Notes under the pieces: model-generated
Database searches by the model: none
The model's input: only the letters and a program-made list of their open reading frames with translations
What the model was told of the DNA's origin: nothing
Assembly: GCF_016904885.1 (NCBI RefSeq)
Contig: NZ_JADWYI010000001.1
Span: 3,782,001-3,846,000, forward strand
Direction of reading: 5' to 3'
Length of the DNA: 64,000 nt
Source of the DNA: Archangium primigenium
Lineage (GTDB): Bacteria; Myxococcota; Myxococcia; Myxococcales; Myxococcaceae
Shown: positions 24,395-27,522 of the stretch, piece after piece
How positions within the stretch are numbered: the first letter of the stretch is position 1
Layout: every line of letters begins with the position of its first letter
Program-made: the position numbers and the translations under genes

Positions 24395-24973
24395 ATGACA
24401 CTGTCCACGTCGCTTCGCGTGTTGCTCCTGGCTGTCCTCCTGCCCTGTGGGCCAGCGGGCGCCACCACCCTGTTGCGTGCCGAACTGCCCGAGCTCGCCC
24501 AGTCCTCCGACGCCATCGTGCACGGCACGGTGCGCCGGGTGGAGAGCCGTTGGAGCGGGGACGGGCGCCGCATCGTCACCGACGTGGAGATCCAGGTGAC
24601 CGAGTCGCTCAAGGGTCAGCCGGGCGCGACGGTGCTCGTCACGCAGCCCGGGGGGCGGGTGGGGGACATTGGCCAGCGGGTCAGTGGGCTCGCCACGTTC
24701 ACGCCAGGCGAGGAGGTGGTCGTCTTCCTCGCGCGGCAGGGCGCCGATGCCTTCCGGGTGTCCGGGATGGCGCAGGGCAAGTACAAGGTCCAGCCCCCCG
24801 AGGGGGGACGCAAGGCCCAGGCCGTGCCGGAGTCCCTGGGGGACACGCTCGTCCTCGACCCGGCCACCCAGGAGCCCGTGGAGGCCCCGGCCCGGAGCCT
24901 GCCGCTCGCGGAGCTCAAGGCGGCCATCCGCGCGGCGCTCGTGTCTCCGGCGACCCAGGAGAAGAGGCCGTGA
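24395..24973 (+). CDS. Exported protein preceding two metalloproteases
   Basis: 192 residues from ATG 24395, with signal peptide VLLLAVLLPCGPAGATT. The mature part is a beta-rich domain (IVHGTVRRVESRW, VTDVEIQVTESLKG, FTPGEEVVVFLAR), a pattern I have seen beside secreted matrixin-like proteases; the family name was not recalled. Its stop shares a base with the next start (TGATG), so translation is coupled to the first metalloprotease. Confidence 0.75.
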   Translation: MTLSTSLRVLLLAVLLPCGPAGATTLLRAELPELAQSSDAIVHGTVRRVESRWSGDGRRIVTDVEIQVTESLKGQPGATVLVTQPGGRVGDIGQRVSGLATFTPGEEVVVFLARQGADAFRVSGMAQGKYKVQPPEGGRKAQAVPESLGDTLVLDPATQEPVEAPARSLPLAELKAAIRAALVSPATQEKRP

Positions 24974-25878
24974 TGATCTCCGCCCTGGTGCTCGCGCTCG
25001 CGCTCGGTCAGAGCGACCCGTACGTCCGCAGCCGCGTGACGGCGAGTGACTCGCAATCCCAGTGCCTCTTCTGGACGGTGCCCACCATCCCCTGGCAGCT
25101 GAGCAGCGTGGGCAACCCCCAGAGCACCGACGCCCAGCGGCAGGCGGAGTTCCAGGCCATCCGCGCGTCCGTGAAGAGCTGGCAGGACGTGTTCGACGGT
25201 TGCGGCAACCTGGGCTTCGCCGAGGGGCCGCTCGTGGACGATCGCAAGGTGGGCTACGTGCTCAAGGGGGACAACCGCAACCTCTTCCTCTTCCGGTCGC
25301 GGCGGTGCGCCGACGTGGCGCCCTCGACCGATGCGTGCTGGCGCGACGAGACGTGCGGCAATGCCTACGACTGCTGGGACAGCGACGAGCGCACCATCGC
25401 CCTCACGCTCACCACCTATGACGAGAAGTCCGGCATCATCTACGACTCGGACATCCAGCTGAACGCCAGCGGCTTCACCTTCACCACCGTGGATGCGCCG
25501 GTGTGCGTCCAGCCGGGCGCCACCCAGCGCAACTGCGTGGCCACCGACGTGCAGAACACCATGACGCACGAGCTCGGCCACCTGCTCGGGTTGGATCACA
25601 CCCTGGCCAGCGGCTCCGTCATGTACCCCCGCGCCCCCTCGGGGGAGATCTCCAAGCGCACCATCGACGCGGGCTCGCGCGACTTCGTGTGCGGCGCCTA
25701 CCCCAAGGGCGGCGCCAGCCAGAGCTGCTTCACGACCCCGGTCAGCACGCCCAGCGCCGTCGTGCTCGGCCCGGTCTCCTCGGGATGCGCCAGCACCGGC
25801 GCCGCCCCCGGGTGGCTCGCGCTGGGCGCCGGGGGGCTGCTCCTGGGACGTCGTCGGCGGGGAGGCCTTCGCTCGTGA
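24973..25878 (+). CDS. Secreted matrixin-like zinc metalloprotease with MYXO-CTERM-like tail (first of pair)
   Basis: 301 residues from ATG 24973 (GTG 24970 also possible). Short signal peptide, then a protease domain with the extended zinc motif HELGHLLGLDH (His199, His203, His209; Glu200 catalytic) and a downstream Met-turn candidate (SGSVMYPRA). Eight or more Cys suggest disulfides. The C-terminus has GCAST, a hydrophobic stretch and RRRRGG, matching the tripartite MYXO-CTERM sorting signal that anchors proteins at the myxobacterial surface. It is one of two adjacent paralogues and probably degrades external protein. Confidence 0.83.
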   Translation: MISALVLALALGQSDPYVRSRVTASDSQSQCLFWTVPTIPWQLSSVGNPQSTDAQRQAEFQAIRASVKSWQDVFDGCGNLGFAEGPLVDDRKVGYVLKGDNRNLFLFRSRRCADVAPSTDACWRDETCGNAYDCWDSDERTIALTLTTYDEKSGIIYDSDIQLNASGFTFTTVDAPVCVQPGATQRNCVATDVQNTMTHELGHLLGLDHTLASGSVMYPRAPSGEISKRTIDAGSRDFVCGAYPKGGASQSCFTTPVSTPSAVVLGPVSSGCASTGAAPGWLALGAGGLLLGRRRRGGLRS

Positions 25879-26807
25879 CGCGGCGCCTCGCATGGGCTCC
25901 GCTCGCGGTGCTCGCCCTGGCCTCGTCCGGGGCGGAGGCCCAGGACTACCGGCGCACCCTGGTGCCTGGCCGACCCTTCTGTGTCGTCTGGCCCGGCCGG
26001 GAGTTCCTCTACCGATTGGATCCCGCCGGCAGCGCGCGCACCCCGGGGGACTCCGAGTTCGCCGCCATCGATGCCGCCGTGGCCTCCTGGCGCGCGGTGT
26101 CCAACACCTGCAGCGACTACGTCTTCACCCGCGGCCCGGACCTGCCGAATCCCCAGGTGGGCTACGACAAGGACGGCGGGCCCAACGACAACGTCATCAC
26201 CTTCCGCGAGCGGGACTGCAACGATGCCGTGCCTCCTGGAGACCCCTGCCTCGAGGCCGACACCTGCGCCAACGACTACGGCTGCTGGGAGCACGGCAAC
26301 GCCACCATCGGGCTCACCACCACCACGTTCAGCTTCCGCACGGGCTACATCCTCGACGCCGACATCGAGCTCAACGCGTCCGGGACGGGCAGGGGCTACG
26401 AGTTCACCACCGCCGACTCGCCGCTGTGCGACAGCGTGCGCACCACCGCGTGCGTGGGCATGGACCTGCAGAACACGGTGACGCACGAGCTCGGCCATGT
26501 GGTGGGCCTCGACCACGTGCCCGAGGTTCCCGGCTCCACCATGGAGCCCACCGCGCACCCGGGCGAGACGAGCAAACGCATCATCGACGTGGGCAGCGCC
26601 GCGGGGTTCTGTGATGCGTACCCCCGGGGCCTGCCCCCCGTCCAATGCGGCGAGAATCCGCAACTGGGCCGCGGCTTCCAGGCGGTGACCAAGGGGGTGG
26701 CCAACGGATGCGGCGCGGGGCCCGGCGTCCTGCTGCCCCTGGCCTCGGGGCTGACGGTGGTGGCCTGGCGTCGACGGCGCCAGGGCTCCGGCGCGCCGCG
26801 TGGGTGA
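25875..26807 (+). CDS. Secreted matrixin-like zinc metalloprotease with MYXO-CTERM-like tail (second of pair)
   Basis: 310 residues. GTG 25875 overlaps the previous TGA (GTGA), so translation is coupled. Signal peptide LAVLALASSGAEAQ. Zinc motif HELGHVVGLDH with His204, His208, His214 and a Met-turn candidate (STMEPTAHPGE). It shares paralogous segments with the preceding protease (TCANDYGCWEHGNATIGL versus TCGNAYDCWDSDERTIAL). The C-terminal tail NGCGAGPG, hydrophobic stretch and RRRRQG again fit MYXO-CTERM. The pair arose by tandem duplication and divergence. Confidence 0.83.
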   Translation: MTRRLAWAPLAVLALASSGAEAQDYRRTLVPGRPFCVVWPGREFLYRLDPAGSARTPGDSEFAAIDAAVASWRAVSNTCSDYVFTRGPDLPNPQVGYDKDGGPNDNVITFRERDCNDAVPPGDPCLEADTCANDYGCWEHGNATIGLTTTTFSFRTGYILDADIELNASGTGRGYEFTTADSPLCDSVRTTACVGMDLQNTVTHELGHVVGLDHVPEVPGSTMEPTAHPGETSKRIIDVGSAAGFCDAYPRGLPPVQCGENPQLGRGFQAVTKGVANGCGAGPGVLLPLASGLTVVAWRRRRQGSGAPRG

Positions 26808-26823: not shown

Positions 26824-27522
26824 ATGGGCATCGCCTTCTTCGATCTGGACAAGACGCTGCTCGCGGTGAACTCGGCCTCCCTCTGGGTGCGTGACGAGTT
26901 CGCCCAGGGGCACATCTCCCGCTCCCAGGCCCTGCTCGCCAGTGTCTGGCTCGCCCGCTACCACCTGGGCTTCGCCCCCATGAAGAACGCGCTCGCGCGG
27001 GCCCTGGCCACCCTCCAGGGCACGAGCGAGGCGCGGCTGCGCGAGCGCACCGCCCAGTTCTACGAGACCCAGGTGCGCTCGCAGTTCCGCCCCGGGGCCC
27101 TGCGGACCCTGGACGCGCATCGCGCGGCGGGAGATCGGCTCGTGCTGCTCACCTCGTCCTCGGAGTACATGTCCGAGCTGGTGGCGCGCGAGCTCGGGCT
27201 GGCCGAGGTGCTCTGCAATCGCTTCGAGGTGGATGCGCGGGGCGTGTACACCGGCCGGCTGCGCGGGGAGCTGTGCTTCGGTGACGGCAAGCGCGTGCAC
27301 GCGGAGGCCTGCGCCTCGCGGCTGGGCGTGGCGCTCTCCGACTGCGCCTTCTACACGGACTCGTATTCGGATCTGCCCGTGATGGAGGTGGTGGGTCGCC
27401 CCGTGGCCGTCCACCCGGACCGTCGCCTGCGGCGGGAGGCCTCCCGCCGCGGCTGGCGCGTGGTGGACTGGGGCGTGCCTGGACGGCTCAGCGACGCCGG
27501 GGCGCCACGATCCGGATGGTGA
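26824..27522 (+). CDS. HAD-IB family phosphatase (SerB-like)
   Basis: 232 residues from ATG 26824; a GTG at 26800 would add 8 residues. Motif I is FFDLDKTLLAVNS, motif II LLTSSSEY, and motif IV region FYTDSYSDLPVMEVVG, typical of HAD-IB hydrolases related to phosphoserine phosphatase and CicA. A helical cap lies between motifs I and II. The 3' end overlaps the convergent kinase gene by 35 bases. Substrate unknown; a phosphate monoester of a small metabolite or lipid head group is plausible. Confidence 0.82.
   Translation: MGIAFFDLDKTLLAVNSASLWVRDEFAQGHISRSQALLASVWLARYHLGFAPMKNALARALATLQGTSEARLRERTAQFYETQVRSQFRPGALRTLDAHRAAGDRLVLLTSSSEYMSELVARELGLAEVLCNRFEVDARGVYTGRLRGELCFGDGKRVHAEACASRLGVALSDCAFYTDSYSDLPVMEVVGRPVAVHPDRRLRREASRRGWRVVDWGVPGRLSDAGAPRSGW

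Follow-up and report, generated by a model that had tools for sequence, protein, structure and literature searches.

A candidate matrix metalloproteinase/TIMP-like operon of Archangium primigenium and its conservation across bacterial phyla

Within a 64,000-nucleotide stretch of the Archangium primigenium genome (NCBI RefSeq assembly GCF_016904885.1, contig NZ_JADWYI010000001.1, positions 3,782,001 to 3,846,000 of the forward strand; hereafter the window), three genes on the + strand overlap end to start between positions 24395 and 26807 (Table 1). The first encodes P0001, a putatively exported protein, and the other two encode the metalloproteases P0002 and P0003. An earlier reading of the sequence (the original prediction) had described a paralogous pair of proteases with HELGH-type zinc sites, coupled through TGATG and GTGA overlaps to an upstream exported protein, and the open reading frames (ORFs) and zinc motifs bear this out; the start that it gave for the span, 24395, is that of the upstream gene P0001, the proteases themselves beginning at 24973. 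Overlap is also usual at the loci of homologues described below, where 141 of the 158 scored junctions between a P0001-type gene and its protease gene overlap (103 by 4 nucleotides and 36 by 1 nucleotide), as do 15 of the 23 scored junctions between a first and a second protease, although these counts are upper bounds because the script took the start codon closest to the stop. The fixed stoichiometry once read into this coupling was not supported, with one partner gene set against two proteases, and the part in predation-related protein degradation that the original prediction thought plausible found no support either.

Table 1 Features of the three-gene operon, in window positions.
Feature	Position	Strand	Basis
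P0001, predicted TIMP-like (NTR/OB-fold) exported protein, 192 aa	24395..24973	+	ORF; AF2 model; TIMP/NTR matches
Presumed signal peptide of P0001, residues 1-23, ending A21-G22-A23	24395..24463	+	by eye
Thr24 codon, presumed mature N-terminus of P0001	24464..24466	+	several TIMP rows start here, at TIMP residue 1
TGATG stop/start overlap, P0001 to P0002	24971..24975	+	sequence, junction statistics
P0002, matrixin-like protease, 301 aa	24973..25878	+	NF041905, PF00413, AF2 model, karilysin/MMP fold
HELGHLLGLDH zinc site of P0002	25567..25599	+	sequence; Met-turn methionine 25621-25623
MYXO-CTERM sorting tail of P0002	25783..25860	+	TIGR03901 21.3 bits, cut-off 20
GTGA start/stop overlap, P0002 to P0003	25875..25878	+	sequence
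P0003, second matrixin-like protease, 310 aa, GTG start	25875..26807	+	NF041905, PF00413 (sequence families)
HELGHVVGLDH zinc site of P0003	26484..26516	+	sequence
MYXO-CTERM-like tail of P0003	26709..26804	+	by eye: GC, hydrophobic stretch, RRRR
aa, amino acids; AF2, AlphaFold2; MMP, matrix metalloproteinase.

Both proteases belong to NF041905 (myxosortase-dependent metalloprotease, MXAN_2677/MXAN_2678 family; cut-off 250 bits), with scores of 381.4 bits for P0002 (E = 1.9e-114) and 353.1 bits for P0003 (E = 8.6e-106), and both reach PF00413, P0002 with 32.9 bits and P0003 with 24 bits, exactly at the cut-off of 24. They share 41% identity across their aligned stretch and are thus paralogues. 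Each carries the matrixin (M10) signature, HExxHxxGxxH plus a Met-turn (the Met-turn-like motif after the zinc site reads SVMYP in P0002 and STMEP in P0003), and residues H199, E200, H203, G206, H209 and M217 of P0002 are invariant in 62 aligned rows. Within the window the zinc motif occurs in these two frames only, and across the 9.49-Mb genome PF00413 gave four matches at E ≤ 0.01, two of which are P0002 and P0003. The AF2 model of P0002 (from 62 sequences; predicted local distance difference test (pLDDT) 81.3, predicted TM-score (pTM) 0.78) found karilysin first in both structure searches (VIA-align: Z 16.5, root-mean-square deviation (rmsd) 2.7, 162 of 166 residues aligned; Foldseek: E = 1.3e-7), and the 50 entries that each search listed were without exception matrix metalloproteinases (MMPs) or matrixins, including chains taken out of complexes with tissue inhibitors of metalloproteinases (TIMPs). 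By this model, P0002 has an MMP-type catalytic domain. P0002 and P0003 are also the sole matches in the genome to NF041938 ('MYXO-CTERM-anchored inactivated metalloprotease'), both below its cut-off.

MYXO-CTERM tails had been claimed for both proteases. The claim stands for P0002, whose tail exceeds the TIGR03901 cut-off (23.3 bits in the genome-wide search), and for P0003 it comes down to a resemblance seen by eye, TIGR03901 not being listed for that protein in an NCBIfam scan with E up to 10; the C-terminal ends read RRRRGGLRS in P0002 and RRRRQGSGAPRG in P0003. A myxosortase gene, which the original prediction had proposed to look for elsewhere, is present: mrtX is the single myxosortase match in the genome (MrtX family NF040593, 434.3 bits, cut-off 180, G000:C1:3985444-3986142). 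The same genome holds at least 20 MYXO-CTERM proteins over the cut-off among 47 matches listed, a lower bound with 150 of 303 candidates scored. MrtX cleaves and surface-anchors the MYXO-CTERM protein TraA, according to the available text of PMC11980579, and MXAN_2677 and MXAN_2678 are absent from the main text of that paper.

Sequence searches with the partner of these proteases returned little. P0001 had no Pfam match at E ≤ 10 and did not pass the cut-off of any NCBIfam model; 35 homologues searched against Pfam at E ≤ 1 gave no TIMP or NTR family, one of them reaching agrin NtA at E = 0.17; 80 homologues searched against NCBIfam at E ≤ 0.01 touched four families with one or two members apiece, none plausible; a profile search of the Protein Data Bank (PDB) put single-strand DNA-binding proteins first at E = 0.11, a mere hint of an OB-fold; and a viral fold library gave no match at E ≤ 0.001. 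Structure comparison pointed to one fold. With the AF2 model of P0001 (from 80 sequences; pLDDT 87.0, pTM 0.81), Foldseek ranks 1-17 in the PDB were solely agrin NtA, TIMP-1, TIMP-2 and the PCOLCE NTR domain (E from 6.7e-4 to 2.1e-2), a single-strand DNA-binding protein following at rank 18. VIA-align, for which Z below 8 may reflect merely a common arrangement, placed N-TIMP-3 (from its complex with TACE) on top (Z 10.6, rmsd 2.8, 117 of 121 residues aligned), with TIMP-1 at Z 10.5, agrin NtA at 10.4 and complement C345C domains at 7.6-8.8. A TIMP fold had been guessed from the sequence beforehand, and the structure searches themselves were given no such hint. P0001 is thus highly likely, on the strength of its predicted model, to have a TIMP/NTR fold.

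P0001-type proteins and metzincins were then compared in their distribution. Among 117 genomes of the order, NF041905 matched at E ≤ 1e-10 in 105 (over the cut-off in 84) and a P0001 homologue was found at E ≤ 1e-5 in 106; both occurred in 105, neither in 11 and a P0001-type gene alone in 1 (G058, whose match, L093, lies at a contig end), counts that are not 117 independent events because the genomes are related. Among 80 loci of named relatives, 75 had an ORF with HExxHxxGxx[H/D] adjoining the homologue. The remainder comprised a metzincin-like neighbour with the first His replaced by Gln (L166), three loci at which the contig stops at or just past the homologue (L143, L172 and L180) and one true exception (L136). 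For a broader count we pooled homologues from the genome searches of the order and of other classes, the best 80 of 102 named relatives and fetched loci, giving 189 with distinct domains (L031-L180, L185-L254 and the window, leaving out the repeat places of the order search, L001-L030, and the PF00413 loci, L181-L184), with the motif loosened to [HQ]E..H..[GN]..[HDE] and later Bacilli loci counted apart. Of these, 160 have a metzincin downstream on the same strand within 2.2 kb (median 605 nucleotides from domain end to HExxH), in 13 both lie in one frame, in 2 the metzincin is upstream, 6 loci are cut off and 8 have none, so that a metzincin lies beside or is fused to 175 of the 183 evaluable distinct homologues, in sets that lean to best matches. 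After thinning to below 60% mutual identity (n = 107), 97 were linked, 5 were without a metzincin and 5 were cut. Named records with a linked metzincin bear titles such as Acidobacteria, Verrucomicrobia, Hydrogenedentota, Gemmatimonas and Tumebacillus.

Linkage is weaker farther out. In the class of the acidobacterium Luteitalea sp. (L158), 53 of 80 genomes had a match, and 20 weaker matches comprised 14 regions with a metzincin, 5 with none and 1 cut; among 200 genomes from the class to which the Tumebacillus genome belongs, 36 had a match at E ≤ 0.001, mostly weak, and among 29 far Bacilli loci 11 had a metzincin upstream and 18 had none within about 1.5 kb. Set against the 175 of 183 above, these weaker matches show a linkage that is tight among the proteins most like P0001 and loosens in distant branches. 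Orthologues without proteases, which the original prediction had regarded as telling against it, were found at the edges of the family (8 of the 183 pooled homologues and those 18 far Bacilli loci). A functional link between partner and protease is very probable. One Myxococcaceae-like locus, L114, comes from a record titled 'Comamonas sp. KCTC 72670' that is probably mislabelled.

The 13 shared frames, which are stop-to-stop frames and may contain an internal start, have the TIMP-like domain first in ten and the protease first in three (L072, L127 and L163). In L072 and L127 the protease is followed by a MYXO-CTERM-like tail, a second signal-peptide-like stretch and then the TIMP-like domain, so signal peptidase could still free the TIMP-like N-terminus. 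L163 has a hydrophobic segment between the protease and the TIMP-like domain.

The start of the TIMP-like domain is itself conserved. In the structural alignments, many TIMP rows start at residue 24 of the P0001 model, which is paired with residue 1 of those chains whose numbering begins at 1, and in the predicted model Thr24 sits where TIMP Cys1 lies. Ala occupies column 23 of the family alignment in 71 of 80 rows, and column 21 in 55 of 79, as would suit signal-peptide cleavage, and column 24 holds Thr in 64 of 80 rows, Ala in 8 and Ser in 4 (76 of 80 together), and never Cys. TIMPs chelate the catalytic zinc through the alpha-amino group and carbonyl of their Cys1, and an N-terminal extension disables inhibition. 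Ala, Gly or Ser at position 23 followed by Thr, Ser or Ala at position 24 was found in 154 of 175 linked homologues, 2 of 8 unlinked ones and 5 of 6 that were cut off, the remaining unlinked members having no aligned residue there (five) or Pro (one); this contrast is a pointer, because the eight unlinked members are few and come from few branches. The least variable positions in the 97 thinned linked members include G74, G86, G87, G105 and F111; G86 and G87 form part of a PGG loop after the third strand (E79-85) of the model, which, from the strand order, would correspond to the TIMP C-D reactive loop.

The proteases, for their part, appear to start at the catalytic domain. An MMP prodomain normally has about 80 residues. 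Counted from the start codon closest to the partner's stop (with a script floor of about 100 amino acids), the distance to HExxH in 158 linked proteases has a median of 191.5 amino acids (5-95%, 156-224), and the N-termini resemble a signal peptide followed directly by the catalytic region; in P0002, residue 17 is the first aligned to karilysin, at residue 35, with which the listed karilysin chain starts. Judging by these sequences, matrixins of the P0002/P0003 type show no evident prodomain, and such proteases would consequently be active upon folding in the periplasm. A trans-acting inhibitor, made first from the same operon, would do the prodomain's job, and a TIMP-like domain N-terminal in a shared frame would occupy the prodomain's place.

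These observations suggest that the operon may be a bacterial MMP/TIMP-like module, perhaps a counterpart of the animal MMP/TIMP system. The original prediction had offered the upstream protein as an inhibitor or a chaperone; the inhibitor is now the best-supported role, given the predicted TIMP/NTR fold and the linkage of 175 of 183 homologues, and we consider it reasonably likely that P0001 acts in trans as a TIMP-like inhibitor, keeping the matrixins silent until they are displayed at the surface. After export of P0001, signal peptidase I would cut it directly ahead of Thr24; the mature protein, of TIMP/NTR fold, would then carry its free alpha-amino group where TIMPs have Cys1. The proteases, active upon folding in the periplasm, would be held inactive there by P0001 in the manner of a TIMP: its N-terminus and conserved PGG loop may enter the cleft and, with less confidence than we place in inhibition as such, the terminal amine may bind the catalytic zinc. 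Transfer of the proteases to the cell surface would follow, by way of myxosortase and type II secretion, and there P0001 would be shed or would limit protease activity. A similar case is the alkaline protease of Pseudomonas with its inhibitor AprI (I38 family). An inhibitor of a secreted bacterial metzincin acts through a zinc-NH2 bond, according to the title of a reference cited in PMC8235301.

Several observations weigh against TIMP-like inhibition. The Foldseek TM-scores of P0001 are modest (query-normalised 0.33-0.40 over ranks 1-17), and agrin NtA, PCOLCE and complement C345C, which share the NTR fold and stand in the same match lists, are not known as MMP inhibitors. Profile comparison by hhalign of P0001 with human TIMP-1/2/3 gave a probability of 3.4% (E = 0.013; control, TIMPs against the protease profile, 0.1%). 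The N-terminal Cys1 itself is absent, and residues 24-192 contain no Cys, hence none of the six cysteines that form the disulfides of the TIMP N-domain. P0001 is not filed as a TIMP because Cys1 and the cysteines are missing and the profile comparison gives no support for sequence homology; by its predicted fold it looks like one, and it probably works like one. On the genomic side stand the far Bacilli loci that have no metzincin, the exception L136 (Planctomycetota by its title), where an argB-like gene by eye follows the homologue, and two sub-branches from the class of L158 (L235 and L236; L244, L247 and L250) that have no protease neighbour and differ at the N-terminus, adjoining by eye a TonB-receptor-like ORF or a TAXI-transporter/amidase-like cluster. 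Some proteases beside a TIMP-like gene have altered zinc ligands (third ligand Glu in L073 and Asp in L091 and L092; Gln for the first His in L166). The apparent signal peptide of P0002 (MISALVLALALGQ, window 24973-25011) is short and without a basic residue, as in several orthologues. Finally, in the Mtz-Tim pair of Listeria monocytogenes, as described in the available text of PMC8235301, Tim is a lipoprotein whose gene follows that of the protease and which is cleaved by Mtz, and no inhibition test was found in that text.

This pair provides the model for the alternative that survives best, in which P0001 is a substrate or effector: the protease would cut and release the TIMP-like domain, which would then act on the envelope. 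The available text of PMC8235301 reports that Tim loses about 50 N-terminal residues when Mtz is active and that the phenotypes need both proteins. However, the lipoprotein Tim of Listeria carries an N-terminal stretch ahead of its TIMP-like part, whereas the domain of P0001, like that of most linked homologues, starts right after a signal-peptidase-like site, so that P0001 has no N-terminal stretch to remove, and we regard release by cleavage as improbable here. A partner in folding or export, a chaperone or pilot for protease maturation or type II secretion, would suit the upstream position and the overlapping genes of most scored pairs, as well as the retention of the partner by the proteases with altered zinc ligands; yet the best fold matches are TIMP/NTR modules, no chaperone being named in the leading rows, and it is hard to see what a conserved residue-1 position would mean for a chaperone, which makes this role an unlikely one. 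That P0001 is a matrix- or ligand-binding NTR module targeting the protease to its substrate, a function known from the NTR domains of PCOLCE and agrin, is very improbable, for although agrin NtA matches about as well as the TIMPs, with the PCOLCE NTR domain close behind, and some branches lie without a protease beside a TonB-receptor-like or TAXI-transporter-like gene (neighbours by eye), most members are separate proteins encoded ahead of a protease that no evident prodomain would otherwise control.

Among known systems, that of Myxococcus xanthus, to whose pair the name of NF041905 points, is close in gene content; an M. xanthus record (L123) has the same trio. The family name and model cover the proteases, whereas the upstream partner has no NCBIfam model. 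In the open-licence literature of PubMed Central (PMC), we found no mention of MXAN_2676 to MXAN_2679 and no paper joining TIMP and myxobacteria, some of the text searches bringing up animal TIMPs alone. TIMP-like bacterial proteins are already in print, since PMC8235301 describes Mtz-Tim; its authors, in the available text, note such pairs across many Gram-positives and had found no earlier record of TIMP-like bacterial proteins. The two systems are alike in that a metzincin gene adjoins a gene for an exported protein of predicted TIMP likeness. They differ in that the TIMP similarity of Tim rests on Phyre2 (available text of PMC8235301), in that P0001 has no lipobox by eye and begins at TIMP-like residue 1, and in that the partner gene precedes the protease in the window, as it does in 160 of 175 linked homologues. 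The protease comes first, as in Listeria, in 2 of the 175 as separate genes (both Tumebacillus), in 3 of the 175 in one frame and in 11 of the 29 Bacilli loci; the Tumebacillus and metzincin-bearing Bacilli loci thus resemble Mtz-Tim in gene order. A tblastn search of phage records with the Bacilli homologue L263 gave no match.

The KLIKK proteases of Tannerella forsythia are also similar: each is preceded by a small ORF, and the products are predicted lipoproteins without significant mutual similarity (available text of PMC4404884). Karilysin with potempin A, the pair named in the title of PDB entry 8b2q (among the matches of P0002), likewise joins a bacterial matrixin to an inhibitor, karilysin being the top structural match of P0002, and the partner ORF lies immediately ahead of the matrixin gene in both systems; the KLIKK proteases differ in their C-terminal domain, P0002 and P0003 having MYXO-CTERM-type tails instead. 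The potempin A chain of 8b2q was not among the 50 VIA-align rows listed for P0001, which says nothing either way. With animal TIMP and MMP, the operon shares the predicted folds of both partners and, in the model, a presumed mature residue 1 at the position of TIMP residue 1; P0001 differs from animal TIMPs in having Thr for Cys1, no cysteine in residues 24-192 and a bacterial operon.

What is new here is a matrixin operon of a Gram-negative bacterium in which the partner gene comes first, a surface-sorting tail is present, and the partner, which has no name yet, is of predicted TIMP fold and conserved across phyla; the proteases are a named family, whereas the partner matched no Pfam or NCBIfam model. 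If P0001 is a TIMP-like inhibitor, the matrixins that show no evident prodomain in Myxococcota, Acidobacteriota, Verrucomicrobiota and others would share one control device, and a natural set of protein inhibitors for MMP-type enzymes would be at hand. The N-terminal-amine idea would then give a sharp test, because six of the eight protease-less members lack the fixed N-terminus. Such an inhibitor would also bear on whether TIMPs arose only with animals and on the origin of MMPs. TIMPs have been described as arising during the eumetazoan radiation (available text of PMC10755359), and the root of the MMPs, bacterial or metazoan, is left open in the available text of PMC12587646. It is even conceivable, though we think it quite unlikely, that the partnership of MMP and TIMP did not originate in animals: bacteria would long have paired matrixins with TIMP-fold inhibitors that use a Thr, Ser or Ala amine made by signal peptidase in place of Cys1, and animals would have taken over, or derived afresh, the two halves of such an operon.

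Two minor observations complete the description. One Tumebacillus genome carries several divergent copies of the P0001 family (L199, L202 and L205), two of them directly behind a small metzincin gene. In the window, P0003 is followed by a HAD-IB phosphatase gene (26824-27522).

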